From Vigna angularis (taxonomy: Eukaryota; Streptophyta; Magnoliopsida; Fabales; Fabaceae), in NCBI RefSeq assembly GCF_016808095.1, contig NC_068976.1, positions 12,619,001 through 12,683,000 on the forward strand: 64,000 nt of DNA. Direction: 5' to 3'. Below are positions 3,001 through 61,627 of this stretch, piece after piece; position 1 is the first letter of the stretch; every line of letters starts with the position of its first letter. Both the position numbers and the translations under genes were made by a program. Under the pieces are notes generated by a model. That model was not told the origin of the DNA. It saw only the letters and a program-made list of their open reading frames with translations, and did not search any database.

Positions 3001-6000
3001 CCCACTCTGGAAAACAAGTCATGACTCTAAATATGACCCAATCAAAGTGTCTGTTCATTAAAACTTAGTATTCCAGAACCCAAGTACACTGATGAAATTA
3101 TGACAAAGGATGTAACAGATGTCAAAGTTCATTTGATTGTTTACAATTGTGAAATGCATAAAAGTGAGCAATTTTTAAGTCTTTGAAAGTTTAGGTATAA
3201 TAGATGCTATTATAATACACTTTTTATAACAAAAGCTTGCAAAACTAAGAAACTGGAACGCATTGAAACAAAAAAGAGGAAGATAATTTTATAAAATTGT
3301 CTAGCTTTGTGAATATACTGAAGGACTCACCCCCCAAAGGATTTCTTTCTGATTTATCTGGTTTACTGCATCATGGATGCTTCCACTGAGGGTAACAGCT
3401 TCTGGATCATCAGAAATTGAGCTCGGTTGCCCAGCTGTAACTGCAGTGTGACAAGAATGAAATTTATGCAAAACTGAAAAGTAAATGAACAGAATTAACA
3501 CAACTTAAAACGAGGAAAAGTACCTTGGAAGCTAATATGCTCATTGATAATACCAATTATTGTGGTGGATTGCATACTATGTAGATGTTGCAATAGAAGC
3601 TCATAGGAATACTGCCAGAAGTCCAACACATTAACTATCAGATTTTTCAATGTATAGAGAACGTAAACGTAATGACCTCAGTGATGAAAATTCTTAGCAA
3701 AACTATAAATAAAGCCAAAACTGGTTTTTACGTATATGGTTCTTTTCTTTATTCAGAAGCTGCAAATCAAAATGCTAATAGCCAAGCATTTTTCTGAAGA
3801 GAAAAGCATCATCAATATTAATAGAAAATAAAATCACAAGAGTGTTGGGTACAAACAAAGTCCCACATCGGATAAAATACGAAATAGACATGGGTTTATA
3901 TACACATAAGATACCTCATTTGGTAAGAGGCCTTTTGAAGTGGTATCAAAAGCAAATCCATGAGGTCTTAGCCCAAAGCGGACAATATCTTACCGGTGAG
4001 GTCTGGTGAACAAAAAACTTCCGCTATAGGGGAAGTAGAAGAACCATAACCCTTTGTTTGAGGGGAGGTTGTTGGGTACAAACAAAATCCCACATCGGTA
4101 AGAGACCTTTTGGAGTGGTACCAAAAGCAAATCCGTGAAGTCTTAGCCCAAAGCGCACAATATCTTACCAGTATGGAAATCTATGGATATGTGTGAAAAC
4201 AGTCAAATACAGAAAAACAATGCCCAAAAAGGGCACAAAAGTTCTGCCCAACTTCTCATGGATTATGAAACTAACTGAAAAATATACTTAATCTGATGAC
4301 TACTGAAACGAGTTACCGAGAAACAGTTCAACTAAAGAATATTAACAAACTAATCCAGGTAAATAAAGGCATTACCCGACATATCTTTATGTTGAACTTA
4401 CTCTGCCTAAGGGAATGAGCGAATTCCATTTCCTGAGAAAAAAGAATATTGAAGGATTATATATAGTGCTAGCAGTCTAATAACTTCAAGAAACATATAA
4501 AAGATATCAATTTCAGATAGCAACTAACCTCCAAATGAGTAGGAGAAAGAACTAGTTCCAATTTCTGAAGGTCTCGTGAGTGCAACATTTCATGGTCCTC
4601 ACGAAAGGTATTGAAAAAGTTCCAAGCTGAGTATATCAGACAGAATCATAAATCATGTGACAGAAGCATAAAACAAATGATGCATTGATTGCCACATAAG
4701 GAACTTCAAAATCCATAAAAAATAATATTAATAATTATTGTTAAATGTCTGTGTGAAGAAATATTTCATACCTTCCTGAAGATGCCCTTTTGCCACAAGA
4801 TCCATGAAGCAATGGACGAATACTGGATAAAGCACACGCAGTAATTCATGCTGCAAAGAAACGGCAAACCATGTGTAAGAAACTGAAACATAGCAATTTC
4901 GTGAATGAACTTTAAACAAGACAGTAACCAAATGCCATGCTACCTTGTATGATTCAAGTGACCTATATGCCCATGATCTCAGTCTGCCATACCCGTTGTG
5001 GTATCTAGCAGAACCTCTCTCCAATCTGCAAAATAAAGGGTTTCAATTCCAAAAATAATCCTGAAATATTTGAGTTGAAAGTATAATCTAATATAGAATT
5101 CGTGCAAACTAATGACTATATTCTAAGAAAACACATAAACCTCCACTTCAGCCTACATACTTGATACTGTTTATAAAGGATAGCAATAGAATTTGAAATC
5201 ATATTTGTGGAATAGTTTTCTTGTGAGATGCTAAAAAAGTCAAGAACAGATAAATTTGTAGCTTAAAAACACACTTTAAATAGGCCAAGTAAAGTAACTG
5301 TCGTTTGATCCTCTTAATTAGTTCAAAATACTATATTTCCTCCCTGAAAAAAATAAAATATTGTAAAATCCTAACGAATTTACTTTGTTCTGTCTCATTC
5401 ACAAAAGTAAAAATACACACCTATCCTTTTAATTGAAGCTCACCCTCTAAATTGACATTGAAGAGCACAGGAAAAACTGCTTACGGCCAAAGGAATTAGC
5501 AATGTGTAGCAATGTGGAACGATAACTCTATAGATTAAAAATGCACCATCGGTTCACAAATCTATAAGTTTTCCATAGCACACAATGCATCTTCAAAATA
5601 TGAAATATAACCCAAATCTTAGGCACTAAGGTGGGCAACTACCCCCGCTGCAATTTCATTGACATTTAAAATTTTAAAACTAAAATTTACAATTGAAAAT
5701 TTTGTGTTTTTTTTTCAGTGAATGCGGAGTATTCCTTCCCAATAGTTGAAGACTAATCACTCAAGATACTGCTATCTATAAAAACTCAAGTGCATTAGAA
5801 GTCCTACATTCAGTTTATCTCTCCTTGTTAAAATTTAAGTGCATTAGAAATCCTATATTCAGTTTATCTACCCTTGTTAAAAACTCAAGTGCATTAAAAG
5901 TCTTGCGTATAAAATTTCAAGTGTATTAGAAGTCCTACATTCAGTAAAAAATAAACAAACTGAGCAATATAACATAAGAATGACACAAACTTATTGTCTT

Positions 6001-6545
6001 TAGGATAAAAAGATAATCTCCCAATCATTAGTGTCAAATCTCCCCTGGAAAAACCCAAAAGTCCTAACAATTCTTTTTCTGTTCAGACAGGCCTAGAAAT
6101 CAAACTCCTAAGCACATGCTTGAAGGACAAAGACATCTCTCAGCCATCCCATAACATACCTCAGCAAGATTTAAGCAGTGAGTATACTCAACCTTAATCT
6201 GAAACGTGTCAATAATCAAACCATATACCTATATCTATCTATACATATTATCAAAGTAATTTGGTAAATGCTTTGATTATTGACACCTTTCAGGAGTGAG
6301 ACTACTTTAAACTCTGAATCAAGATACCTAGCGACTCAAAGGTGTTGAAGTACTACAATTTGATATAAATTGAAAACGAAAATTGAAGCGAAAAGAGATA
6401 GAGAGAGTGAATACTGAGAGCGATTGAGAGTGTCGGGTTGAAGAGAGGAATCGGCTTTGGAAAGTTGAAGTTGGTCATCGTTTTGCGCAAACCCTTTCTG
6501 CTTTAGATACCCACTCACACAACCTTCTATTTGATCTTCGTCCAT
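1..6545 (-). CDS. TAF5: TAF5, TFIID subunit 5 (5' half; 12 exons; continues past left edge)
   Basis: TAF5 is a scaffold subunit of the general transcription factor TFIID in the nucleus. Exons read on the minus strand: 6545-6415, 5025-4944, 4850-4772, 4626-4529, 4432-4376, 3611-3524, 3440-3331, 1194-1087, 882-731, 516-406, 320-251, 145-106. All introns are GT-AG and the phases join without a stop for 375 codons. Start: ATG at 6545, giving MDEDQIEGCVSGYLKQKGF, a LisH-like N terminus. Exons 2-6 encode the TAF5 N-terminal domain (for example YGRLRSWAYRSLESYK, VLYPVFVHCFMDLVAKGH, FREDHEMLHSRDLQKLE). Exon 7 has SISDDPEAVTLSGS, exon 9 a lysine-rich linker, exon 10 LDDLRNRVQLSSVALPSV, exon 11 SISHDGSLIVGGFSDSSLK and exon 12 VWDMAKLEQQ, the beginning of the WD40 propeller. 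The rest of the propeller lies outside the window. Introns hold two TRIM-type elements and a hairpin. The identification is by recognition of the family, and the splice model is by eye. Confidence 0.93.
2346..2727 (+). mobile_element. TRIM (terminal-repeat retrotransposon in miniature) with TSD, in TAF5 intron 7
   Basis: Two direct repeats, 2346-2465 (120 bp, TGTTGGAAGTT...TTAACA) and 2607-2727 (121 bp, TATTGGAAGTC...TTAACA), flank a 141-bp internal part. The internal part starts with TGGTATCAGAGTC (2466), a tRNA-iMet primer-binding site, and ends with a purine-rich tract, GGCGTGAGGGGAGTG. A 5-bp target duplication AATCT lies at 2341-2345 and 2728-2732. There is no coding capacity, so it must have been mobilised in trans. 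It sits in the sense opposite to TAF5 inside a 2.1-kb intron. It is the free form of the unit captured by the copia element at 15404-15665. Confidence 0.92.
3843..4172 (+). mobile_element. Degenerate TRIM-like element in TAF5 intron 5
   Basis: Two direct repeats begin TGTTGGGTACAAACAAA at 3843 and 4070. The second lacks about 50 bp present in the first. The sequence before the second repeat, TTTGAGGGGAGGT, looks like a polypurine tract. A GTGGTATCAAAAGC segment follows each repeat and resembles a decayed primer-binding site. No open frame and no clear target duplication were found. It is probably a TRIM or a deleted LTR element. Confidence 0.6.
5781..5945. repeat. Short tandem repeat, about 50-60 bp units, in TAF5 intron 1
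   Basis: Four degenerate units, each containing AAGTGCATTAGAAGTCCTA followed by ATTCAGT, occur between about 5785 and 5945. Units differ by small indels. It is intronic and no coding role is seen. Confidence 0.7.
6199..6293. ncRNA. Candidate pre-miRNA-like hairpin in TAF5 intron 1
   Basis: Positions 6199-6229 and 6263-6293 are inverted copies: 31-nt arms with three single mismatches and a 33-nt loop. The perfectly paired core includes GTGTCAATAATCAAA. Arm length and spaced mismatches fit a plant miRNA precursor, but a tiny MITE or a chance foldback fits equally well. It lies near the 5' end of TAF5 intron 1. No known miRNA family was recognised. Confidence 0.3.
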
Positions 6546-11700: not shown

Positions 11701-13852
11701 TCAAGTTGCAGCATATATATCCTTAATGCTCAGCTTGGACAACAAAGATTGAAATTGTGTTGGATGCAAAGCTTTAGTATGAATGTCTGCAAGTTGGGCT
11801 GAAGTAGAAATGAGCAGGAGTTTAATTACACCAGCTTGAACTTTATCCCTTATGAGATGACAATCAATTTTAATATGTTTTGTCCTCTCATGCATGGCTG
11901 GATTTTGTGCAATTTGTATAGCAGATTGATTGTCACAAAACAGAGGAACTGGTTGTGGTAGAGGTTGTTTCAAATCATGTAGCAAATACAAAAGCCATTG
12001 AATTTCACATGTTGTGGAAGCTAAGGCTCTATATTCTACTTTGGTTGATGATCTAGATATATTACATTGCTTCTTGGATTTCCAGCTGATTAAGGATGCA
12101 CCATAGAACACATTAAAACTAGTCACAAACCTTCTAGTGTCAGGGCAAGTAGCCCAACCAGAATCACTAAAAGCCTTGAGAGCATGTTATGTGTTGGAGG
12201 GAAAGAATAATCCTTGTCCTGGATTGTTCTTGATATATCTCAGGATCCTTATTGTTGCTGCATAATGATCTTTCAAAAGATTGGAAAGAAATTGACTGAG
12301 AGTATTAACAGCAAAACATAAATATGGTCTTGTGTTGGTTAGATATAATAACCTACCAAGAAGTCTTCTATAGGCATGCACATCTAAATAGGGTTTCCCT
12401 TCTGTCTTGGAAAATTTTGTGTCTGGCTGTGTGGGAGTAGAAACAGGTTGACATCCCAACAATCCTGCATTTTTTAGTAACTCTAGAGCATACTTCCTTT
12501 GTGATAAATTAATGCCCTGTTGAGATCTTGCAATTTCTAAGCCCAAAAAAATACTTGAGTTGGCCTAGGTCTTTAACCTTGAACTTTGCATTCAATAGAG
12601 CCTTCACATTTTGGATTTCCTGGATGTCATCACCTGCCAAGACTATATCATCTACATAAAAAAGTAAGATGGTGATATGAGCAGAATCACTTTTGACAAA
12701 AAGTGAATAATCTGGTTTTGATTGTATGTAGCCCAAAGAAAGTAAAGTAGTTGTCAACTTGTAATTCCATTGTCTAGATACCTGCTTGAGTCCATATAAA
12801 GACTTTAACAACTGGCAAACTTGCCCTAGTTTTTCTGTTTTGTAGCCAAGAGGAAGAGACATGTATACTTCTTCATCTAAATCCCCATGTAGAAAAAGAT
12901 TATTTACATCTAGTTGATGTAAATACCAATGTTTGGAGGCTGCTAAAGCCAGAACCAATCTTACTATTGTGTGTTTGACAACAGGTGAAAAAGTCTCAAA
13001 GTAATCTAAGCCTTCTTGTTGTGTGTAGCCTTTGGCTACTAACCTTGCCTTGTATCGTTCAATACTCCCATCAACATGCCTCTTTATTTTGTATACCCAC
13101 TTACATCCGATAGGTTGCTTTCCATAAGGTAGATCAGTCAAAGCCCAAGGTTTGGAATTTTCTAAAGCTGTAATTTCTTGATCCATGGCATTTCTCCAAC
13201 AATCATGTTTGATGGCTTGGTTATAGGTTTTAGGTTCACTAACATGGGAAAGATTAAGGACATATGATTTATGAAGAGATGATAATGCATCATAAGAGAG
13301 ATATGAAGAGATAAGATATAAGGTACCTGTGGATGACTGAGTGGCGGAAGAAGTAGATAACATGTTGCAATGATAGTCCTGCAAATAAGATGGTTTATGA
13401 TTTGGCCTAGTTGATTTCCTTTGTGGAGTAGTAGTGGCAGGTTCAACAGAAACAGGTTGAGAAGAAAAAATAACAGGGTCTGGAACAATAGAAGGAGGAG
13501 ATGTAGGTGGTAAAGAGGGTTGATCAGTAACTTCTGAGAAAATAGGTGATGGAGAGGAAATGATTTTGGTGACAAAATCCAAGGAATTTTGTGTATCAAT
13601 AGGTGAGTGTTTGTCACTAGTAATAAAAGGAAATATGTTTTCATAAAATACTACATTTCTTGATAGAAAAATTTCCCTAGAGTTTAAATTTAACAAAAGG
13701 TAGCCTTTCACTCCTTTTTTAAAACCAAGTAAAACACATTTTCTTGCACGAGGTTGAAATTTTGTTATATGAGCTTGAAAAGTTGAAGCATAGCAAAGTG
13801 AGTCAAAAACTCGTAAGTAAGTAATGTCAGGTTTAACATTGTGTAACAATTA
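11701..13852 (-). pseudogene. Copia reverse transcriptase and RNase H, interrupted
   Basis: From 13849 down to about 12546 the frame encodes the copia reverse transcriptase: KPWALTDLPYGKQPIGCKWV, LDVNNLFLHGDLDEEVYM and the catalytic box FYVDDIVLAGD. A shift in a run of T near 12546 moves the reading to the next frame, where LEIARSQQGINLSQRKYALE continues. A TAA at 12187-12189 then interrupts the same frame before AFSDSGWATCPDTRR. The RNase H part follows (LISWKSKKQCNISRSSTKVE, PLFCDNQSAIQIAQNP) to a natural end near 11701. It is joined upstream to protease/integrase through one nonsense codon (13850-13852). The known role of such a product is cDNA synthesis in virus-like particles; this copy cannot make it. 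Confidence 0.9.
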
Positions 13853-15097
13853 AGATGGAGAAAAATATGCCAAAACTTTGGAAGGTAAAATATTAATGAG
13901 TTGCACAGCATAACGAACAACAAAAGACCAGAAAGTTATGGGCAAATGGGATTGAAACATTAAAGATCTAGCAACATTGAGAATGTGTTGATGTTTTCGC
14001 TCAACAATTCCATTTTTTTGAGGTGTTTCAACACAAGATAATTGATGTTGTATCCCTTTTTGTCTATAAAAATCTGTCATTGCAAACTCATTACCATTAT
14101 CTGATCTAACAACTTTTACATCAATGCCAAATTGTGTTTTGATATAAGAAACAAAGTCAATAAGTTGTGATATTGTATCTGACTTACTTGCCATCAATTT
14201 AATCCATCTGTGTCTAGACATATCATCCACTATAGTTAAGAAATATTTGAAACCATCAATAGAAGAAGTAGAATAGAGCCCCCAAATATCAACATGAATT
14301 AAATCAAAAGGAGCTTTTGAAACAATAGTACTTAATTGAAAAGGAAATTTCCTTTGCTTAGAATAGTGACAAGTATCACAATGAGTGTATTTTGTATCAG
14401 GTAAAGTGGCATACATGGTGCGTAATTTGATATAACAAGAAGAAGAAGGATGTCCTAGTCTAGAGTGCCAAATATCTATAGAGTTAGGTCTTATTGTAGA
14501 ACAAGCAATGAAATTCTCAGGAGTAATAGAAGCTGGTGAACCAAGGGGTGTGGATGTAGGAACTATCATGATATACAAGCCATCTCTTTCTTCAGCTTTC
14601 CCAATCATCTGCAGGGTTGACTTGTCCTGTATTTCACATGAAAATTCAGAAACGACAATTTTACAAGATAGAGACTTAGTTAACTTTGTGACCGAAATAA
14701 TATTGACTGAAAAATTAGGAACAAACAAGACATTATGTAAAGTAAGGTATGGGCTAAGAGAAACTGTGCCAGAATAATGAGCAAATGAAGAGTTCTTGTT
14801 GGGTAGTGATACTGTAATTGGTGAGATTCTATGATAAGAAATAAAATGAGACAAAGAACTGGATATATGATCAGTAGCACCTGTGTCTAGAATCCATTGG
14901 GAATAGATATTACCTTGATCCTGAGAAGAAGTGGAAACATTATGAGAACTCACTAGATCGGTATAATGTGTGACTGTGGGATTAAATTGAGGAAGAAGTG
15001 CCAATAGGCCATGAATTTGCTCTTGAGAAAGTCTCAGAGTTGAGGAATGTGGTTGCGCCTGAGAATTAGTAGAAGAAGGAACAACTGTAGAAGCCAT
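13850..15097 (-). pseudogene. Copia protease and integrase part of pol, ends at a premature stop
   Basis: The frame starts MASTVVPSSTNSQ at 15097. It has the aspartic protease motif LDTGATDH near residue 69 and the GAG-pre-integrase / HHCC zinc region (HSRLGHPS ... CDTCHYSKQRKFPF) at about 215-255. The integrase D,D-35-E triad is visible in VDIWG (about 269), RSDNGNEF (about 333) and NGIVERKHQ (about 364). It ends at TAA 13850-13852, directly followed in the same frame by the LLHNVKPDITYLRVFD segment of the next block, so the stop is a nonsense mutation rather than a gene boundary. The usual gag domain upstream is absent. Confidence 0.9.
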
Positions 15098-20942: not shown

Positions 20943-21220
20943 TTAATATTTGGGTTAAATATGTTTTTCGTCCCTTAAATATCACTGATTTTTTGTTTTA
21001 GTCCCTATTCAAAACTTTGATGGCTTTTAGTCCTCATAGTATTGAAACATGTAACATTAATCCCTAAAAATGGATGGCGTCAACTTTTTGTTGATCTGGC
21101 AAACGACGAGGCCACGTCTTCTGCCAGCTTCCGTCTTAAGTATCTGTCACGTTGCTTGTTTAATTTGTGGAATGAGATTAAGTGATTGGCACGTGTGTGG
21201 GTGATTGAAATCAGATTACG

Positions 21221-21287
21221 AAAGTTGGGTTCTTCTTCGTCATCTCAGTTGGGGGAAAAGTTGGGTTCTTCTTCGTCATCTCAGTTG
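21221..21287 (+). repeat. 36-bp tandem duplication just inside the left MULE inverted repeat
   Basis: AAAGTTGGGTTCTTCTTCG and the following CATCTCAGTTG occur twice, at 21221-21251 and 21257-21287. The duplication lies in the likely leader of the GRF gene. Confidence 0.8.
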
Positions 21288-23992: not shown

Positions 23993-24546
23993 TTCTAGAC
24001 CTACATTCAGACATTAACACTTTACTCACATATTTTGACCAACCAATGATAACCGAAAAACAAAAACTTACCTTGATACAATGCGCTTGTCTTTCACACC
24101 CACCATTTCTTTCACGAGTACCGCAAGGAGCACCGCAAGGACCAACGCAAGGACCACCATAACGACCACCGCAACTACCACCTTGATACAATGCTTCGAG
24201 TGGAAGGTTTCGAGTACAATGCTTCCAGAAACTAGTTTTCCCTAATTGGAAGGTTTCGAGCCCTAATTCGTAATCTGATTTCAATCACCCACACACGTGC
24301 CAATCACTTAATCTCATTCCACAAATTAAACAAGCAACGTGGCAGATACTTAAGACGGAAGCTGGCAGAAGACGTGGCCTCGCCGTTTGCCAGATCAACA
24401 AAAAGTTGACGCCGTCTATTTTTAAGGACTAATATTACATGTTTCAATACTATGAGGACTAAAAGTTATCAAAGTTTTGAGTAGGGACTAAAACCAAAAA
24501 TCAGTGATACTTAAGGGACGAAAAACATATTTAACCCTTAAGATTT

Positions 24547-30950: not shown

Positions 30951-30955
30951 GGAAA

Positions 30956-32642
30956 TGTAACATCTCAATATCTCACGCCGGATAATTCATAATTTATATA
31001 TTGTAACATTACATTTACGGTAATATCCCGTAATCTCACACTTATAAATTCATAATTAATATATGTCTACACATGTTTTAAACTCAGATTTCAACTATAA
31101 ACTCATAAATATAATTCGAATTCTTCTAACTTATTCTTCTGTCTCTCTCTTCATTGGCATTGGATCAGACGACAATCCTTCGTCTGCTCCCGTATAACGA
31201 ATTATACGATCATCGCACATACCCAAACACAAAACAAACACAAACAAGTAGGGTGAGTTAACATGCAACAAATCATTTAAAACATGTATAATTACCTTGA
31301 TATAAACATCATATAATAATTATGTTCGACACCCTCATACCACAATTCCTATTAGACACTCGTCTCACAATACCCAATAGACGCCACAATACCCAATAGA
31401 CACTCATCCGGATGATACGTTGATGAGCGGTCACGGGAGGTTATGCACTTGGAATGACTTCTACTTCTTCTTACAAATACACTTCTAAAATACTTCATAC
31501 CATTCACAAGGTTAGTCCCCTCACTATGTCCAAAACCGGCACATAGACCAGGACCTCCTGCTCCTCTCACCACATAATTCATCCCTCTCTACTTGAGACT
31601 AGATGATTATTAGAGTATCAGGATAACCTCCAACTACGGGACCCTCAACTTCAACATATACACAAATACCATAATATTACTGAATCTCTCCACGAGACTC
31701 ATGCCATACTCATATTCCTCAACTCACATTATACCCCTACAAAATCTCCCCATAATACTCATAACATGTTCAGATGCATAAATTCAAATGCAATATAATA
31801 AAATACAATCATCACATAATCACACAAACTCAATATATTGCATAATAATTTAACAGTACTCAATCTGTTCAATAGGATTTAAGTTAAAAACTTGTCGAGT
31901 AGACTTCCAGGAAAGAGAGGTGCGTCACAATGGACAACTTAAGTACCAAGTCTTTCCTTAGCCAAAGTGTTCCTCAACTAGTTTTTAACAAATTTCTTAT
32001 TTACAGATTCAAAACAACAGCATATAATATTTATACCGAATTTCAACATAGATAAACATACAGTAAACATTAACAATATTCACACAGAATTTCAAGACAT
32101 GAATAGTAATAAAACAGTACTAATTCATAATATAAAAGCTTAGAAAAGTTAGCTCCCCTACCTCTATTCCAGGCGTCTCTTGCTCTGAATTTATTTCTCC
32201 GAAACCTTTCAGAACCTCTACCCTTCTTGCAACTAAAAATTTATCTCTAACTTTCTCTCACTTGATTTCTCTTCTCTTGGTGCAGAATACCCTTCCCTCC
32301 CATGGCTATTTATAGTAAAAAAAATTTACTATTCATTAATATTTTAATATTATTTATTATTTTAATATTATTTAAAAATAATATTTCAATCATTTTCTCA
32401 CCAAATCTGATCATAATTTCTACCTACTACTTTCTTCCATGCTAAGAAATCTTAATGCTGAAAATTTATTTTTACTATTTACTTTTTACTATTTACTTTT
32501 TACTATTCAATTTAAAAAAATTTACTAAATAAGTTACCAAAAATTTGAACCTCTCCTTCTAAAATTACTATAATTTTATATCCAAAATTTACAATTTTCT
32601 ATCCATTAAAATTATTATTAATAATAAAATACTAAAATTTAC

Positions 32643-32676
<34 letters not shown>

Positions 32677-32697
32677 TTTTTTTTCATGAATCTTACA
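30956..32697 (-). repeat. Gypsy 3' LTR (1742 bp)
   Basis: It matches 37779-39477 almost throughout. It differs by an extra copy of a short CACAATACCCAATAGAC segment (about 31365-31400), one more TTTACTATTTAC repeat (about 32470-32510) and a longer TA run (32647-32674). A TATA-like box, CTATAAATAG (minus strand), lies at 32315-32306. Small open frames inside it, such as 31582-31352, are LTR sequence and not genes. Confidence 0.93.
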
Positions 32698-37220: not shown

Positions 37221-37260
37221 TTCTCTCTGTTCATACAGAGAATACTCTTAGGTCGTCTTA

Positions 37261-37778
37261 AGGACGAACCGCTCTGATACCATCTGTAACGCCCCGGCAA
37301 CTCGCAGGGATCGTTGACTGCCCCCACAGATCACCACCAGGCTTTCCAGTGTGCTTTGTCCTCACTCGCACACTTTCCGGGAAAACTTCCCAGAAGGTCA
37401 CCCATCCCAGAATTACTCCAAGCTAAGCACGCTTAACTATGGAGTTCTTATGAGTTAGGCTACCGAAAAGAAAATGCATTTTGGTGATATGAGTAGTCAA
37501 ATAAATTCCTTTAAGCTATCCTTCAACTGTATAGTCCCATACCTATACAGTCTCCAGATCCCTCTCATTCCGGTGTATGTTCGATTCATCCATGTACCCC
37601 TTCCACCCGAAGCTGCCAGGAGCCGCTCCTTGTCTGTGCCCCCTGCACCATGCTTCTTGCACCGGCGTCACTCCCCGCCCTCGTCTTCGTGCCCGGGTGT
37701 CACATGCCCACCAGCTTCCGCTCTGGTTCGTCCTCGAACCACACCGTACTGGGAGAGGCTAGGCTCTGATACCATTAA
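37261..37778 (-). mobile_element. Captured Cassandra-like TRIM unit between gypsy 5' LTR and gag
   Basis: Minus-strand order: gypsy LTR end, TTAA, first primer site TGGTATCAGAGCC (37774), about 165 bp of GC-rich internal sequence, purine tract GGTGGAAGGGG (37607-37597), then about 312 bp ending GGGGCGTTACA (37285). After a 2-base spacer comes a second primer site, TGGTATCAGAGCGG (37282-37269), and then the gag leader. The 312-bp part contains a 5S-rRNA-like segment (37381-37462), a hallmark of Cassandra TRIM LTRs. The LTR start next to the purine tract reads TACATGG rather than TG..., so that boundary is inferred. The related LTR at 39688-42036 joins directly to TGGTATGAGAGCGG without this unit. 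Confidence 0.75.
37381..37462 (-). other. 5S-rRNA-like sequence with Pol III internal control elements
   Basis: On the minus strand the segment includes AAGAACTCC, AGTTAAGCGTGCTTAGCT (matching plant 5S box A), GGAGTAATTCTGGGATGGG (intermediate element) and GGGTGACCTTCTGGGAAG (box C). The 5' third and 3' end of a genuine 5S gene are missing or too divergent, so it is not annotated as a functional rRNA gene. The comparison is to the plant 5S sequence as I know it. The internal promoter boxes could still bind TFIIIA or recruit Pol III. Confidence 0.85.
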
Positions 37779-39477
37779 TGTAACATCCCAATATCTCACG
37801 CCGGATAATTCATAATTTATATATTGTAACATTACATTTACGGTAATATCCCGTAATCTCACACTTATAAATTCATAATTAATATATGTCTACACATGTT
37901 TTAAACTCAGATTTCAACTATAAACTCATAAATATAATTCGAATTCTTCTAACTTATTCTTCTGTCTCTCTCTTCATTGGCATTGGATCAGACGACAATC
38001 CTTCGTCTGCTCCCGTATAACGAATTATACGATCATCGCACATACCCAAACACAAAACAAACACAAACAAGTAGGGTGAGTTAACATGCAACAAATCATT
38101 TAAAACATGTATAATTACCTTGATATAAACATCATATAATAATTATGTTCGACACCCTCATACCACAATTCCTATTAGACACTCGTCTCACAATACCCAA
38201 TAGACACTCATCCGGATGATACGTTGATGAGCGGTCACGGGAGGTTATGCACTTGGAATGACTTCTACTTCTTCTTACAAATACACTTCTAAAATACTTC
38301 ATACCATTCACAAGGTTAGTCCCCTCACTATGTCCAAAACCGGCACATAGACCAGGACCTCCTGCTCCTCTCACCACATAATTCATCCCTCTCTACTTGA
38401 GACTAGATGATTATTAGAGTATCAGGATAACCTCCAACTACGGGACCCTCAACTTCAACATATACACAAATACCATAATATTACTGAATCTCTCCACGAG
38501 ACTCATGCCATACTCATATTCCTCAACTCACATTATACCCCTACAAAATCTCCCCATAATACTCATAACATGTTCAGATGCATAAATTCAAATGCAATAT
38601 AATAAAATACAATCATCACATAATCACACAAACTCAATATATTGCATAATAATTTAACAGTACTCAATCTGTTCAATAGGATTTAAGTTAAAAACTTGTC
38701 GAGTAGACTTCCAGGAAAGAGAGGTGCGTCACAATGGACAACTTAAGTACCAAGTCTTTCCTTAGCCAAAGTGTTCCTCAACTAGTTTTTAACAAATTTC
38801 TTATTTACAGATTCAAAACAACAGCATATAATATTTATACCGAATTTCAACATAGATAAACATACAGTAAACATTAACAATATTCACACAGAATTTCAAG
38901 ACATGAATAGTAATAAAACAGTACTAATTCATAATATAAAAGCTTAGAAAAGTTAGCTCCCCTACCTCTATTCCAGGCGTCTCTTGCTCTGAATTTATTT
39001 CTCCGAAACCTTTCAGAACCTCTACCCTTCTTGCAACTAAAAATTTCTCTCTAACTTTCTCTCACTTGATTTCTCTTCTCTTGGTGCAGAATACCCTTCC
39101 CTCCCATGGCTATTTATAGTAAAAAAAAATTTACTATTCATTAATATTTTAATATTATTTATTATTTTAATATTATTTAAAAATAATATTTCAATCATTT
39201 TCTCACCAAATCTGATCCTAATTTCTACCTACTACTTTCTTCCATGCTAAGAAATCTTAATGCTGAAAATTTATTTTTACTATTTACTTTTTACTATTCA
39301 ATTTAAAAAAATTTACTAAATAAGTTACCAAAAATTTGAACCTCTCCTTCTAAAATTACTATAATTTTATATCCAAAATTTACAATTTTCTATCCATTAA
39401 AATTATTATTAATAATAAAATACTAAAATTTACTACTATATATATATATATATCTTTTTTTTTTCATGAATCTTACA
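37779..39477 (-). repeat. Gypsy 5' LTR (1699 bp) with promoter
   Basis: Near-identical to 30956-32697. TATA-like CTATAAATAG on the minus strand lies at 39119-39110, followed downstream by a CT-to-GA-rich leader. This LTR would drive the gag-pol transcript. Confidence 0.93.
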
Positions 39478-39482
39478 GGAAA

Positions 39483-39687: not shown

Positions 39688-41278
39688 TGTAAGACCTATG
39701 AAAAATATTTACCTTAATAGTGACAATTTTATTACTAGTAGTAATAAATTTCTTTGTGAATGGAAAATATAATAAGTTTATAAAATGTGGAAAGCTACAT
39801 AAGAAATTTTGGTAGCTTAAATGGTAGAAAATTGTGGAAATTTCAAGAATATGGGTTCAAACTCTTTTCTACCTTTTTCTTTTAAAAAAATTTTAAAAAA
39901 TAAATAAATAAAATAAAAAAAAATTAAAATATTGATAGTGGATAAAGCACTCCAGGTTTGAAGGCATTATTGAGGGATCCAATATGTCAACTGGTGATTA
40001 AAATATTAATATAATAAAATAATATTAAAATAATAAATAATACTAAAAAATTGGTGAATAGTAAAATTTTTGGACTATAAATAGCCATGAGAGGGGAGAC
40101 TATTCTGCACAAAGAGAGGAAGAATCAAGTGAGAAAGCTTGAGAAATAGAGAAGAAAGAGTTAGGAAGAAATTTTTAGTTACAAGAAGAGTAGAGGTTCT
40201 TGAGGGTTTTCGGGGAAACAAATTATGAGCAAGAGATTAAGTCTGGAATAGAGGTAGGGGAGCTAACCTTTCTAAGCTTTTATATTATGATTTAGTATTA
40301 TTTTATTACTATTCATGTCTTGAAATTCTGTGTGAATACTATTAATGAAAAACATAGGTGCTTACTGTATATCTATCTATAGTGAATTTCTGTGCTAATA
40401 TTATATGTTATTGTTTTGAATCTGTAAATAAGAAATTTGTTAAAACTAGTTGAGGAACACTTTGGCTAAGGAAAGACTTGGTACTTAAGTTGTCCATTGT
40501 GACGCACCTCTCTTTCCTAGAAGTCTACTCGACAAGTTTTTAACTTAAATCTTGGTGAACAGATTATGTACTGTTAAATTATTATGCAATATATCTTGTT
40601 GGAATGAAAATTTCTGATGAATTCATGTTATTGTGGTAGATATGGAATTATGAATTATAATTGTGATGGTAGGATAGAGGAATCTTAAAAACCGGAGTTG
40701 GTACATCCCTGATCATAGAGCAGTCCTGGTCAAATCCAATAAGTTGTGACTAGTCATATGTACTAGCGTTTATGGTGAGTTTGATTCGTCAAACATTTGA
40801 TTCTTCTCCGGTGACCATTTATGGTGATATTTTAGTATTGTTAATTTATTTTGTGATATATTCATTTTGTATCATTTCTGTGATGATTGTATTTTATTAT
40901 ATTGGATTTGAATTTATGCATCTGAACATGATATGAGTATTATGGGGAGATTTTGTAAGGGTATAATGTGAGTTGAGGAATATGAGCATGGTATGAGTCT
41001 CGTGGAGAGATTCAATAATGATATGGTATTTGTATATATGTTGATGTTGAGGGTCCTGTAGTTGGAGGTTATCTTGATACTCTAATAATCATCCAGTCTC
41101 AAGTAGAGAAGGATGAATTATGTGGTGAGAGGGGCAGGAGGTCCTGGTCTATGTGCCGGTTTTGGACATAGTGTTGAGGACTAACCTTGTGGATGGTGTG
41201 GAGTATTTTGGAAGTGTATTTGTAAGAGGAAGTAGAAGTCACCACAAGTGCATAACCTCCCGTGACCGCTCACCAACA

Positions 41279-41640
41279 TATCATCAGAATGAGTGTCTAT
41301 TGGGTATTGTGGAATGAGTGTCTATTGGGTATTGTGGAATGAGTGTTTATTGAGTGTTTATTGAGTATTGTGGAACGAGTGTCTATTAAGTATTGTGGGA
41401 TGAGTGTCTATTAGTAATTGTGGTATTGTGGGATGAGTATTTATGATGCGATTGTTGTATGATGGTATGAGTATCTATGATGCGATTGTTGTATGATGGT
41501 ATGAGGGTGTCTGACATAATTATTATATGAGGTTTGTTGAGTGTATCAAAGTAATGGATGAGTATCTATGATGCGATTGTTGTATGATGGTATGAGAGTG
41601 TCTGACATAATTATTATATAAGGTTTGTTGAGTCTATCAA
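41279..41640 (+). repeat. Minisatellites inside the gypsy LTR
   Basis: Units of about 25-30 bp built on GAGTGTCTATTGGGTATTGT repeat from about 41290 to 41430. Units containing TATGATGCGATTGTTGTATG repeat three times from about 41450 to 41600. The intact LTR has one or two copies of the first motif, so it has expanded here. Confidence 0.85.
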
Positions 41641-41848
41641 AGTAATTATGCATATTTTATAAATGATTGGTTGCATGTTAGCTCACCCTACTTGTTTGTG
41701 TTTGTGTATGTGCGATGATCGTATAATTCGTTATACGAGAGCAGATGGAGGAATGTCGTCTGATTCAGTGCCAATGAAGAAAGAGATAGAAGAATAAATT
41801 AGAAGAATTCGAGTTATATTTATAAGTTTATAGTTGAAATCTGAGTTT

Positions 41849-41850
<2 letters not shown>

Positions 41851-41935
<85 letters not shown>
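41851..41935. repeat. (AC)n-(AT)n compound microsatellite
   Basis: AC dinucleotides to about 41890, then AT dinucleotides to about 41933, within the LTR. Confidence 0.95.
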
Positions 41936-41940
<5 letters not shown>

Positions 41941-42036
41941 AAATTATCAAGTGTGAGATTAAGGGATGTTACCTTAAATGTAATGCTACAATATATCAAT
42001 TATGAATTATCAAGTGTGAGATTACGGGATGTTACA

Positions 42037-42300
42037 TTAATGGTATGAGAGCGGTTTGTCCTTATGACGACCTAAGAGTTGTGGATTTATCCTATGAACT
42101 CATATGTGCTTTTAGCGTTTTAGAAGTTGTGGATATGCTCATTTTTTTATCATGCATGATGACACGTCTCACAACGATTTAGAGCGTCAATGTCACTTTT
42201 TTTCCTCTTTCAGATTCATCGTGTGTAGTTGCACGTCCTATCCATTAAGACAATTATTCATGCTCTTTTTTCTTTTTCAGATGCCTTGATTGGAGAATCT
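42037..42300 (+). mobile_element. Leader fragment of the truncated gypsy element
   Basis: Primer site at 42041-42054, then GACGACCTAAGAGTTGTGG. Similarity to the intact element's leader fades before any gag start. The 3' break point cannot be placed exactly. Confidence 0.6.
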
Positions 42301-49787: not shown

Positions 49788-50343
49788 TATTGGGAATCTA
49801 AGTGTGACTCTAATTCCCATATTAAATAGAAATGAGAAATTGGAATACTATACAAAGATAAAAGACCCATTAATCCATTACCTTAAGGTTTTGGGTAAAG
49901 AGTGGTGTCAATCCCTTATATGGTTGAACTCATATCTCATTGTGTTTGTGTCTCCCCAGTGAACCTCCTTCTTGATAAACCCAACTGTGGTATCAGACCA
50001 ATGATTTGTCTTGGTGACCGGCTCAAACAAGTATAATGGTCCCTATACCGAAGGTTTTCCTTTCCTCGATAGACCTAACAGTGGTATCAGAGCCGATGGT
50101 TTGTTTTTGTGATCGGCATGCTTTCGCTGGAGGGGAATGTACTTATGTGGAAGGGACTCACCCTTGAGGGGGAGATTGTTGGGAATCCAAGTGTGAGTCT
50201 AAGTCTCACATTAGATAGAAATGAGAAAGTAGAGCACTATATAATGATAAAAAACCCATTGTCTTAAGGTTTTTGGTAAAGAGTGGTGTCAATCCCTTAT
50301 ATGGTTGGAATCAGATGTCATTGGTGTTTGTATCTCCCTAACA
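49788..50343 (+). mobile_element. TRIM-like element with duplicated primer-binding site
   Basis: Direct repeats: 49788 to about 49985 (TATTGGGAATCTAAGTGTGA...) and 50177-50343 (TGTTGGGAATCCAAGTGTGA...CCTAACA). The intervening part has two primer-site-like sequences, TGGTATCAGACC (49988) and TGGTATCAGAGCC (50082), in a duplicated segment of about 94 bp. A purine tract, CTTGAGGGGGAGAT, abuts the second repeat. It has no coding frame. No convincing target duplication was found. Confidence 0.8.
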
Positions 50344-55945: not shown

Positions 55946-56186
55946 AACTTAAATATACAATTCAATTCAATCATTGTTTACAAACTATTTCTAACATTTC
56001 AAAGAGTAATCTCAATAAATTTTATACCTAGTTTGCAACCATACATATTCAACTACCCCAACTAAAATCATATTCGAAATCAAGTACAATTATGTCCACC
56101 CATTTAAATCCAAACATAAATATAGTTTTAAAATTCCAAACCAATTATTATGTTCCTGACCAACAATAACAAAATCACATGTTTCA
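55946..56186. other. Short spacer before the large CACTA element
   Basis: AT-rich, no feature recognised. Confidence 0.5.
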
Positions 56187-57600
56187 CACTAGTGCAGAAT
56201 TGGCTTTTAACGTCCCCCAATAGACGTCCGTCCACAAAAGCCCCAACGTATATAATTGACCGGTGGCATATTCGTAAATAAGTGGAACTCTAGACGTCCG
56301 TCCATGGTCGAGACGGACGTTTATAATGTTATGAACGTCCGTCCTAGAGGGACGGACGTTTAATAGGCTGAACAAGTGAACCCATGTCAGCCCTTTGAAC
56401 GTCCGTCCTTGGTCGAGACGGACGTTTATAATGTTATGAACGTCCGTCCTAGAGGGACGGACGTTTAATAAGCTGAACAAGTGAACCCATGTCAGCCCTT
56501 TGAACGTCCGTCCTTGGTCGAGACGGACGTTTATAATGTTATGAACGTCCGTTCTAGAGGGACGGACGTTTAATAGACTGAACAAGTGAACCCATGTCAG
56601 CCCTTTGAACGTCTGTCCTTGGTCGAGACGGACGTTTATAATGTTATGAACGTCCGTCCTAGAGGGACAGACGTTTAATAGACTGAACAAGTGAACCCAT
56701 GTCAGCCCTTTGAACGTCCGTCCTTGGTCGAGACTGACGTTTATAATGTTATGAACGTCCGTCCTAGGGGGACGGACATTTAATAGGCTGAACAAGTGAA
56801 CCCATGTCAGCCCTTTGAACGTCCGTCCTTGGTCGAGACGGACGTTTATAATGTTATGAACGTCTGTCTTGGGGGATGGACGTTTAATAGGCTGAACAAG
56901 TGAACCCATGTCAGCCCTTTGAACGTCCGTCCTTGGTCGAGACGGACGTTTATAATGTTATGAACGTCCGTCTTGGGGGACGGACGTTTAATAGGCTGAA
57001 CAAGTGAACCCATGTCAGCCCTTTGAACGTCCGTCCTTGGTCGAGACAGACGTTTATAGGCTGAACAAGTGAACATTTTCAAGTACCCATGCCAGCCCTT
57101 AAACGTCCGTGTTAGGGGGACGGACGTCTACGAGGCTGAACAACTGAACGTTTCAATTCCCCAAGTAGGGACCTTAAACGTCCGTCCTGGGAGGGCCCGG
57201 ACGTCTATAATATGATAAACGTCCGGCCCCGCATATCGGACGTTTAATGTGCTGACAGGGTGGTTGGACATTTAATTGTCTTCAGGCCCTTAAACGTCCA
57301 GTCTGGGGGGCCGGACGTTTATAATATTATAGACGTCCGGGCCCTCCCAGGACGGACGTTTAAGGGCTGACATGGGGAGTTGAAACGTTTAGTTTGTTCA
57401 GTGTAATAGACGTCCGTCCCCCTCAAAATGACGTTTATAATATTATAGACGTCCGGCGCGACCCAGGACGGACGTTTAAACCCACCCACGAATATCATTT
57501 TTAAATCCTCAAAGACGTCATATTAGTGACGAACCGGACGTCTATAATATTATAGACGTCTGTGCCCCAGCGTACCGGACGTCTAAGACTATTAATAGTG
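56187..57600. repeat. CACTA subterminal repeat region with palindromic GACGTC motifs
   Basis: About eight units of 101-107 bp run from about 56290 to 57070. Each has AACGTCCGTCC ... GGACGTTTATAATGTTATGA ... GGACGGACGTTT and then a spacer GCTGAACAAGTGAACCCATG. From 57100 to 57600 the units become shorter and palindromic; 57537-57560 is a perfect 24-bp palindrome centred on TATAATATTATA. By analogy with En/Spm these are transposase-binding sites that bring the ends together. The 241-codon frame on the minus strand here is only translated repeat. Confidence 0.92.
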
Positions 57601-58450: not shown

Positions 58451-61400
58451 ATGGATCGAAGCTGGATGAACGAACGTCGCATCAGTGAAGAATATGAGAA
58501 GGGTGTTTCGAAGTTCTTGCAATACGTTGAACAAAATGCTAAGTCTGTCAACGGGACATATTTTTGTCCTTGTGTGCGTTGTCTTAATCAAATACGGCAA
58601 GACTTAGGCAATGTGCGTGACCATCTATTCATGTACGGCATAATGAGGACTTATACCGTTTGGACTTGGCATGGAGAAGTACTGGAGCAGCCTACCACGT
58701 CATGAGGAACGGATTATGTGGAAGAATGAATGAGTGACCATTTAGAGGACATGATACGTGATGTCGGTGAAGATAATTTTGGAAGGGCTAATTTGTATGA
58801 TTCTCTTATTAATGATTCAGAGCAACCGTTGTTCCCAGGATGCTCGAACTTTACACGTCTGTCTTCAACTTTAAAGTTGTTTAGTTTAAAAGCAAGGAAT
58901 GGATGGACCGATAAAAGTTTCACCGAGTTGTTGGAGTTGTTGAAGGAGATGCTTCCAGAAAATAATACTCTACCTATTCGTAATTACGAGGCCAACATTT
59001 TTTTATGTCCAATGGGTCTTGAATATCAAAAGATACATGCTTGTCCTAATGATTGTGTTTTGTACACAAAGGAGTTTGCTTCGTTAAAGTATTGTCCAAC
59101 ATGTGGTTTATCCCGTTTTAAAAAGAAATCTGAGAGAGTCACTGGTAATGAAGGTAATGATGGTGCACCTGCTAAGGTGATGTGGTATTTGCCTATAATA
59201 CCTAGGTTCAAACGTATGTTCTCTGTTAAAGAAGATGCAAAGAACCTTAAATGGCACTCTGACGAAAGAAAGTGCGATAATCTTCTTCGACACCCTACTG
59301 ATTCTCCACAATGGAAAAAGATTGATGACAAATTCCCTGAATTTGGTGCAGATCCAAGAAACTTAAGGCTTGCACTTGCAACTGATGGTATGAATCCTTA
59401 TGGAAACTTAAGTAGCAAACACAGTTCGTGGCCAGTTATGTTGATGATTTACAATCTTTCTCCTTCGTTGTGCATGAAGAGAAAATATGTGATGTTGTCC
59501 ATGATGATATCGGGTCCTAGACAACCTGGAAATGACATTGATGTTTACTTAGCACCTTTAATTGATGATTTGAAATTGTTGTGGGAAGAAGGCATCGACG
59601 TGTTTGATTCACATGTTCAGGAACAGTTCCGTTTGCGTGCAATGTTGTTTTGCACTATAAATGATTTCCCAGCGTATGAAAACTTGAGCGGTTATAGTGT
59701 TAAAGGTCATTTTGCATGTCCCATATGTGAAGAAAACACTAGTTACCTTCAGTTGAAGCATGGTCAGAAGACAGTATATACAAGACATCGAAAATTTCTT
59801 CCTTGTAATCATCCTTATCGTAGATTGAAAAAAGCATTTAATGGAAGTGCTGAGGATGAGGTTGTGTGCAGACCCCGGAATGGTGAAGAGGTGTACAACG
59901 AAGTCAAAAACATTGACATTGTGTTTGGAAAACATCATAAAAGTACCTCTGCAAAGAACATTTGGAAGAAACGATCGATATTTTTTAAGCTTCCATATTG
60001 GTGTGAACTTAATGTTAGACATTGTATTGATGTGATGCACGTTGAAAAAAATGTTTGTGACAGTGTCATCGGAACTTTATTAAACGTCAAAGGGAAGAGC
60101 AAAGACGGAATAAAAGCAAGACAAGATTTGGCTGACATGGGAATCCGATCTGAGTTACATCCACAGATAATAGGGAGACGCACCTATCTGCCCCCAGCCT
60201 GTCACACACTTTCCAAAAAAGAAAAACAAAGTTTTTATAACTGTTTAAGAAGTGTGAAGGTTCCGCAAGGTTATTCTTCAAATATCAGTAACCTTGTGTC
60301 TATGCAAGACTTAAAGCTAGTTGGTTTAAAGTCTCACGATTGTCATGTATTGATGCAACAATTGTTACCTGTTGTTATTCGAGGCATATTACCTCATTCT
60401 GTTAGGGGTATTCTGACACGTATGAGTTTTTTCTTTAATGCCATTTGTAAGAAAGTTGTTGACCCTCGAGGTTTAGATGAATTGGAAAATGAGGGAATAA
60501 GACTACTATGTCAATTGGAGATGTATTTTCCACCTTCCTTTTTTGACATCATGGTACATTTGATTGTTCATCTAGTCAGAGAAATTCGAATATGTGGCCC
60601 GGTCTTCTTAAGGTGGATGTACCCAGTTGAAAGATACATGAAGATCTTAAAGGGATATGTCAAGAATCAGTATAGACCAGAAGCTTCAATCATAGAGCGA
60701 TACGTTGCAGAAGAAGCCATTGAATTTTGTTCAAGTTATATGCCATCTTGTGAACCCGTCGGTCTTCCCAAGAGCAGACATGAAGGAAAATGTGAAGGTA
60801 AGGGTGTTCGAGGTGTGAGAATTCAAAGTGTTAGCAGAAAAGAAATTGACCAAGCTCATTTGGACGTCTTAAACAACACTGTTGATGTCATTCCTTACAT
60901 TTCTGACCACGTTAATGAAATAAAGGCAACAAACCCAAAAATGAGTGAAAAATGGTATCTTAATGAACATGTGAAAACCTTCTTGCAATGGTTTAAGAAA
61001 AAGATTTATGCGACTCCACATGTTTCTGAAACTTTATTGAGGTTATCTCGTGGGCCAAACACAGATGTCATTACATATAGTGGGTACTATATAAACAATA
61101 TTTCTTTGCAGACAAAGGTAGAAGATGACAAAAGCAGAGTTCAAAATAGTGGCGTCACACTACAAGCTGAGGCTATGCACTTTGCTAGTTCTAAAGACAA
61201 AAATCCAATCACAGCATCCATGAGTTATTTTGGAATAATACAAGAAATATGGGAAGTTGATTACGTCACTTTTAGAGTACCAGTTTTCAAGTGTAAATGG
61301 GTTGATATAAATTCTGGTGTCATGATGGATGACTTTGGTTTCACATTGGTTGACTTGAACAAGATGAATTACACTGATGAACCATTTATCATGGCTAGTC

Positions 61401-61627
61401 AAGCAAGACAAATATTCTACGTAAATGATCCAGCGAATAACAAATGGTCAGTGGTTTTAGAAGGAAAAAACATGCATGGACATGATGATGACGATTCTCT
61501 TGATATACTTGAGACAACATCTGTTGCATGTAGACCCACTGAAGACCCAGTTGATGATGTTGCCGATGTCATGCAGGCAATTCGTAGTGATCACAACGAA
61601 GGCATTTGGGAAAAAACAATTAATTAA
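58451..61627 (+). pseudogene. TNP2-type CACTA transposase with two in-frame TGA codons
   Basis: ATG 58451 opens MDRSWMNERRISEEYEKGV and the transposase-associated domain (CPCVRCLNQ, VWTWHGEV). The same frame meets TGA at 58703-58705 and 58727-58729, then runs 965 codons to TAA 61625. Numbered from 58730: a Cys-rich finger (CPNDC ... YCPTCG, about 104-125) and the TNP2 DDE-type region (LALATDGMNPYGNLSSKHSS, about 215; ISGPRQPGNDIDVYLAPLID). Then a second Cys pair (CPICEENTSY) and DVMHVEKNVCDSVIGTLL. A DUF4218-like block (RGILTRMSFFFNAICKKV ... LRWMYPVERYMKILKGYVK) and a DUF4216-like block near the C terminus (VPVFKCKWVDINSGV) follow. The protein would cut and join the element ends. The stops look like C-to-T decay of CGA/TGG codons. 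Confidence 0.92.

Follow-up and report, generated by a model that had tools for sequence, protein, structure and literature searches.

A TRIM linked with a larger coding element is reportedly what VejuL/BARE2 stands for. These names appear in Sabot and Schulman (2007, PMC1950507), where heterologous template switching was proposed for plant LTR elements. For the TRIM Cassandra, the autonomous partner is stated as unknown in the accessible text of PMC7215508 and PMC10886601, and tandem arrays are known according to parts of PMC7215508 and, for pear, of PMC4668562. For a small number of other TRIMs, partners among larger elements were suggested earlier (PMC4717578, in its accessible part). Here we describe a Cassandra unit of 492 bp that sits in a gypsy element of Vigna angularis, after the 5′ LTR and before gag, bounded by two tRNA-Met primer sites (PBS). 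The locus lies in a stretch of 64,000 nucleotides (NC_068976.1, positions 12,619,001 to 12,683,000), called the window below, and its features are listed in Table 1.

Table 1. Coordinates, in the window, of the gypsy element, the captured Cassandra unit and the neighbouring related element.
Feature	Position	Strand	Remark
TSD GGAAA, 3′ side	30951..30955	.	sequence
3′ LTR of gypsy element	30956..32697	-	1742 bp
Intact gag-pol ORF, 1492 aa	32742..37220	-	single ORF, Pfam matches in gypsy order
Gypsy leader 3′ of PBS2	37221..37270	-	alignment with family-A copies
PBS2 TGGTATCAGAGC	37271..37282	-	GA before, gypsy leader GGTTCGTCC after; right exchange point
LTR-PBS spacer GA, 2 nt	37283..37284	-	shared with free Cassandra copies
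Complete Cassandra LTR, 420 bp, with 5S-like region	37285..37704	-	boundaries from free copies L006, L024, L026, L027 with TSDs
TTTT, possible pol III terminator (inferred)	37382..37385	-	sequence
5S box C GGGATGGGTGACC	37396..37408	-	published-query match
5S box A AGTTAAGCGTGC	37427..37438	-	18 nt from box C
Cassandra internal domain, 70 bp	37705..37774	-	PBS1 to purine-rich tract just upstream of LTR
PBS1 TGGTATCAGAGC	37763..37774	-	gypsy spacer TTAA before, Cassandra CTAGCC after; left exchange point
5′ LTR of gypsy element	37779..39477	-	1699 bp
TSD GGAAA, 5′ side	39478..39482	.	sequence
Related element: LTR, TTAA, primer-like site TGGTATGAGAGC, first 40 nt of leader	39688..42080	+	left end from the preliminary description, by eye

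The minus strand of the window carries a young gypsy LTR retrotransposon with intact gag-pol. Between its two LTRs there are 5 substitutions in 1698 aligned positions, and 46 gap columns besides; the K2P distance of 0.0030 would correspond to an insertion age of about 0.11 or 0.21 My under assumed rates of 1.3×10−8 or 7×10−9. The ORF matched Retrotrans_gag, zf-CCHC, RVP_2, RVT_1, RT_RNaseH, Integrase_H2C2 and SH3_Tf2-1, as well as rve slightly below the curated cut-off. The order gag-PR-RT-RH-INT, the two LTRs and the 5-bp TSD are those of a Ty3/gypsy element. Of the C-terminal chromodomain of Tekay/Del-like chromoviruses the Pfam scan gave no match at E≤0.001, while it did give SH3_Tf2-1; by its resemblance, the element may belong to this clade. 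The window leader lacks 46 bp (near 37245) that are present in all 16 other aligned copies of its family, called family A. A preliminary description of this locus had taken the GGAAA duplication as proof that the chimera moved as one unit; this does not follow, as an event posterior to insertion would leave the same TSD.

In the neighbouring plus-strand element, the LTR and TTAA are joined straight to the primer site and leader, with no Cassandra unit. Its leader is identical to that of the gypsy element at 37 of 40 nt (E 1.4×10−13, two-sequence comparison). It had been put forward as an empty site, and as far as this direct joining is concerned the proposal stands. No gag-pol match was found for it in the window, so that better empty sites are those found elsewhere in the genome. 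Other features of the window are a 105-bp tandem repeat at 56184-56972 (6 copies, the inner ones 97-98% alike), which overlaps a 241-aa minus-strand ORF with weak Pfam matches, an inverted repeat of 271 nt (20952-21222 and 24267-24537, 96% complementary, arms 3 kb apart), pieces of copia-type pol at 12509-15097 on the minus strand, and a separate tRNA-Met primer site at 50082 on the plus strand, of the GAGCC[ACG] type. A 965-aa ORF at 58730-61627 matched Transposase_21 (tnp2), DUF4218 and DUF4216, and is presumably a CACTA-type transposase.

The unit itself is made of a PBS, the 70-bp internal domain, one full LTR of 420 bp, beginning TGTGACACCC and ending GGGGCGTTACA (37704-37285, minus strand), and the GA spacer. 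The published Cassandra query, box A[15-25]box C[5-200]PBS (Kalendar 2020, PMC7215508, in its accessible text), matched exactly once in the 64 kb (A 37438-37427, C 37408-37396, PBS 37282-37271), with 18 nt between boxes A and C and 113 nt between box C and the PBS, and gave no match in 60 Markov-1 random sequences used as a control. Over 37471-37371 (minus strand), the Rfam 5S model scored 24.6 bits, which falls short of its gathering score of 38 (E 0.022 in a search of 1.4 kb). At the gathering threshold no Rfam match was found in the window, and ARAGORN found no gene in it. The two tRNA-Met primer sites and the Cassandra-like, 5S-bearing unit between 5′ LTR and gag, both part of the preliminary description, are thus borne out, the latter by the query match and by free counterparts in the genome.

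These counterparts were searched for in the V. angularis assembly (448 Mb), where 40 of 769 first-look candidates were scored. Free copies have an LTR of about 420 bp, an internal domain of 70 bp and a spacer of 2 nt. All four LTR-internal-LTR copies that were read at their ends had 5-bp TSDs (L006 TTCTC, L024 AAAAT, L026 ACCAC, L027 CTGAC), and L006 spans 912 bp. A median length of 912 bp is given for Fabaceae Cassandra (Maiwald 2024, PMC10853983), and lentil Cassandra LTR sequences are 391-417 bp long (PMC5407846), in the accessible parts of these papers. The LTR-like stretch of roughly 312 bp proposed in the preliminary description was too short, because the free copies with TSDs show about 420 bp. 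The native junction of LTR end, PBS and internal domain was found 134 times as an exact match genome-wide, so that the proviso of the preliminary description, that the LTR part might have no counterpart elsewhere, does not apply. Exact Cassandra internal starts numbered 209, that is 134 of the native type, 32 of the left-junction type presented below and 43 left unsorted. Cassandra arrays are also present in this genome (L002, L005, L009). The free elements to which the captured unit is homologous have two LTRs, a PBS, a PPT and a 5-bp TSD; the unit itself has a single Cassandra LTR only. Judged by these comparisons, the enclosed stretch is a captured Cassandra unit and not a complete Cassandra.

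Traces of such units are also found among predicted proteins of V. angularis. P0121 aligns first with 37474-37776, then with 37273-37452, a circularly permuted match to the unit, P0123 reads internal-PBS-LTR-internal, permuted relative to the window unit, and gene model P0129 ends in a translation spelling an L018-type junction of a foreign LTR, PBS and Cassandra (L018/L040). Chimeric junctions and Cassandra arrays (P0121, P0123) are thus present among annotated adzuki 'genes'. V. mungo P0140, in which Cassandra is joined to gag in opposite orientation, and P0138, seemingly of the same kind (gag recognised by eye), were not counted, as they are probably nested insertions or gene models with splicing; P0133 and P0134 were left out too, because by eye they fit exon junctions. 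Pattern and gag-pol scans of IMG/VR yielded no confirmed chimera (two pattern-matching stretches came from the gag-pol scan, neither of them confirmed), and a pattern scan of the genome contigs collection gave no result.

Presence or absence of the unit was scored in copies found genome-wide with the window leader as query, of which 40 of 85 first-look candidates were scored. Two of the 40 carry the Cassandra unit, namely the window and C3:6446431 (L003/L031). In the other 38, over 75 bases across the primer site, the gypsy LTR end comes directly before the PBS and there is no Cassandra LTR end; as a control, the strict classifier used recognised 8 chimeras out of 8. Sorted by eye, 15 of these empty copies fall in family A, and a sister family accounts for the other 23. 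When the flanks of the window unit are compared with the empty copy L098, 1033 of 1036 positions are identical (exact count); they differ from the chimera L031 at 9 of 1035. When the leaders of two other chimeric families served as queries (40 of 498 and 40 of 143 first-look candidates scored), the fetched copies were empty in 20 cases out of 20 for each, taken from 36 and 39 non-chimeric matches respectively. We conclude that, within the copies scored, the Cassandra unit in the gypsy leader is a derived gain and not an ancestral feature. The capture reading thereby survives the objection, already raised in the preliminary description, that the segment might be an ancestral leader.

The preliminary description implied a singular event, and this had to be revised, as capture is recurrent and concerns several LTR families. 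Both primer-site junctions were verified in 10 insertions (window, L031, L032, array L033/L034, L035, L036, L037, L038, L104 and L150), all of them with the host spacer at the left junction and the Cassandra LTR end with its short spacer at the right. The exchange points therefore fall within the primer site at both ends of all 10, as had been proposed for the window. Gypsy gag or pol was found in 7 of the 10, the window and 6 other stretches; L038, L104 and L150 are not among these 7. When 9 chimeric stretches were scanned, 6 matched gypsy gag or pol, L038, L039 and L040 matched neither gypsy nor copia, and no copia match occurred in any of the 9. The exact right-junction pattern gave 13 matches in the genome, 11 of them real, and its reversed control none; the two false ones, which were dropped, are a Cassandra array with a C-to-A change (L103) and a gypsy LTR end (L106). 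In L105 only the right junction was verified, and in L039 and L040 only the left one, the right junction of L039 appearing at TGGTAT of the leader, outside the PBS. Both ends were read in 7 insertions, and all 7 have matching 5-bp TSDs (window GGAAA, L031 CAAGA, L032 TATAT, array ATAAG, L035 GAATT, L036 GTGTA, L037 TAAGC), and the K2P between the LTRs of these 7, partly measured on partial LTRs, ranged from 0 to 0.0043.

The exact left-junction pattern was found at 32 places in the genome, with no match for the reversed pattern. At 31 of these the match extends at least 47 bp into Cassandra, and at L162 just 19 bp. In a set of 20 of these places (L147-L166), L150 alone forms a complete chimera; in most of the rest the Cassandra sequence is cut short, and many hold a partial Cassandra of 19 to about 480 bp with scattered breaks, that of L166 running into gag and that of L147 into a leader resembling that of L038. 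These partial places could represent chimeras in decay, or the outcome of other jumps. Five of the 20 right breakpoints lie at unit positions 344-375, near the 5S region. Some of the chimeric loci have a composite structure. In L038 (C8:671200-681100), a full unit and a partial one follow each other before a leader with no gag match, hence three primer sites, and the region contains four left-junction matches within 14 kb (C8:665316-679097). L033/L034 (C6:30862000-30880000) is a tandem LTR-unit-gag-LTR-unit-gag-LTR array with one TSD, ATAAG, around the whole. L031 contains at about 5359-6272, in element orientation, a second, complete free Cassandra inside pol, an ordinary nested insertion.

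The captured units are much more alike than most of the elements that carry them. Over the 11 stretches compared, units are 95.6-99.8% identical; those of L031 and L037 reach 98.9% though the families differ, and the L150 unit is 92% alike to that of the window. Between unlike host elements, the last 400 bp of the LTR are 39.5-82% identical, and the 700 bp after the unit 39-70%, L032/L035 being an exception at 92.7% in the latter; for most pairs, LTR ends and leader plus gag are both about 40-70% identical. Unrelated sequences give 40-50% identity in such alignments. In a tree of 32 units from which the junction bases had been trimmed, a single clade of captured units was rejected (AU p 0.012), captured and free units were interleaved and at least 6 state changes were counted, with only 3 of the 29 inner branches well supported. 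The window unit grouped with the free units L006, L008 and L027 (support 96/90). An earlier, untrimmed tree had placed 10 of 11 captured units on one side. For the flanks, a clade uniting window and L031 was rejected with AU p 0.0145 (17 rows), or 0.043 without L091 and L099. Because the window and L031 flanks carry different linked variants, each of which is found in empty copies too, family A has probably undergone two separate captures.

We consider it probable that the 492-bp unit was captured through strand transfer between gypsy and Cassandra, both exchanges falling in the tRNA-Met primer site that the two have in common. During reverse transcription, strands are normally transferred at the PBS. 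Both exchange points lie within the 12-13 bases common to elements using tRNA-Met, the spacer on the left being that of the host, and the LTR end and spacer on the right those of Cassandra. In the scheme that we favour, a gypsy particle would also hold Cassandra RNA or cDNA, and a strand end halted at the primer site would pair with the primer site of the other template. The gypsy minus strand, arrived at its PBS, would thus jump onto Cassandra RNA and copy U5-R. Cassandra's own R-to-R jump would come next, followed by copying of U3, PPT and internal domain up to the Cassandra PBS, and ordinary plus-strand transfer would finally add the gypsy LTR. A single abnormal jump would suffice, and the reverse-transcription route fits in that this one jump would yield exactly the observed product, one full Cassandra LTR and two primer sites. 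We infer an origin during reverse transcription because the PBS is a normal switching point, because the coding type is gypsy, and because the chimeras that were dated, 7 in number, are young. The observation made in the preliminary description is confirmed and its interpretation supported.

The same product could arise at the DNA level, if a one-LTR Cassandra circle or array unit recombined, through 12-13 bp of primer-site homology, with an integrated or extrachromosomal gypsy element: a single crossover would insert the whole PBS-to-PBS unit. The arrays L002, L005 and L009 could supply such units, the full and partial units in tandem in L038 would fit as well, and neither TSDs nor young LTRs are at odds with it. 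However, 12-13 bp is a very small stretch for homologous recombination, and the dated insertions, a set made of the 7 chimeras, are all young. Primer sites of the GAGCC[ACG] type had a Cassandra right junction in 0 of 941 cases, versus 11 of 3547 GAGC[AGT] sites; this contrast, which would also speak against DNA-level capture, is not significant (Fisher one-sided 0.075, two-sided 0.135). We regard capture at the DNA level as the less likely of the two routes, yet as a serious rival. If the unit had been captured once and then spread among gypsy families by gypsy-gypsy recombination, the one-sided placement of captured units in the untrimmed tree and close cross-family pairs such as L031-L037 would be explained. 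This reading conflicts with the rejection of a single clade after trimming, with the grouping of the window unit among free copies, and with the flank test on window and L031, even when L091 and L099 are left out, and we find it very improbable.

Ordinary nested Cassandras do occur, as in the pol of L031, so a Cassandra might have integrated beside the gypsy PBS and lost its 5′ LTR by a PBS-PBS deletion. This would need a landing about 2 nt upstream of the PBS followed by an exact deletion in each of the 10 insertions, whereas the native Cassandra LTR-PBS spacer, also of 2 nt, accounts for the captured units with no coincidence; the chances of such a history are slim in the extreme. A PBS-PBS deletion could also excise the unit cleanly, in which case the gypsy clade would always have had it and empty copies would have lost it. 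An ancestral leader is refuted as stated, within the copies scored, and we give it practically no credence: the unit was absent in 38 of 38, 20 of 20 and 20 of 20 fetched copies, the units are far more alike than most host pairs, and captured units interleave with free ones after trimming.

If strand transfer at the primer site is indeed the origin, this gypsy clade becomes a candidate for the mobilizer of Cassandra. That Cassandra is reverse-transcribed by this clade, the PBS being a recurrent switching point that records co-packaging in new insertions, is a proposal to which we give even chances. Were it true, PBS-to-PBS chimeras would allow a non-autonomous element to be matched with the helper that copies it, on the basis of genome sequence only. 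The primer-site junctions in several young gypsy families are physical evidence of a machinery that may have handled Cassandra templates, and make the question of Cassandra's partner testable, by junction counts in other plant genomes and by sequencing of particle RNA. The chimeras also show that, by way of the primer site, a large element can acquire a further primer site and one more internal LTR, together with 5S promoter boxes in the leader.

Among the titles and abstract openings listed in searches of the open full-text literature, none was found to describe a gypsy element with a Cassandra unit enclosed by two of its primer sites, nor was the junction sequence found in literature text. 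Template-switched LTR elements and Cassandra arrays were known already, and the presence of a Cassandra unit at a gypsy PBS is apparently new. With the Cassandra TRIMs described in the accessible text of PMC7215508 and PMC10853983, the unit shares 5S boxes at 18-nt spacing, a tRNA-Met PBS, the noncoding character and the occurrence of tandem arrays; unlike them, it has a single LTR and sits in the leader of a coding gypsy element. The complex elements of Sabot and Schulman (PMC1950507) resemble ours in that they have an additional LTR inside, outer LTRs that are almost identical, and TSDs enclosing the entire structure (7 of 7 insertions here). However, they consist of two complete cores fused by a switch at the R regions, whereas here the partner is a TRIM, a TRIM domain of 70 bp takes the place of the second core in the window, and the PBS is where both exchanges fall. 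Finally, the TRIM-related longer elements of Gao 2016 (PMC4717578), as far as its accessible part describes them, likewise tie a TRIM to a larger coding element. Those partners share LTRs and internal sequence with the TRIM and are of copia type in flowering plants, whereas in our case a gypsy element is the partner, its LTRs do not resemble those of the TRIM, and the two are linked by a physical junction.
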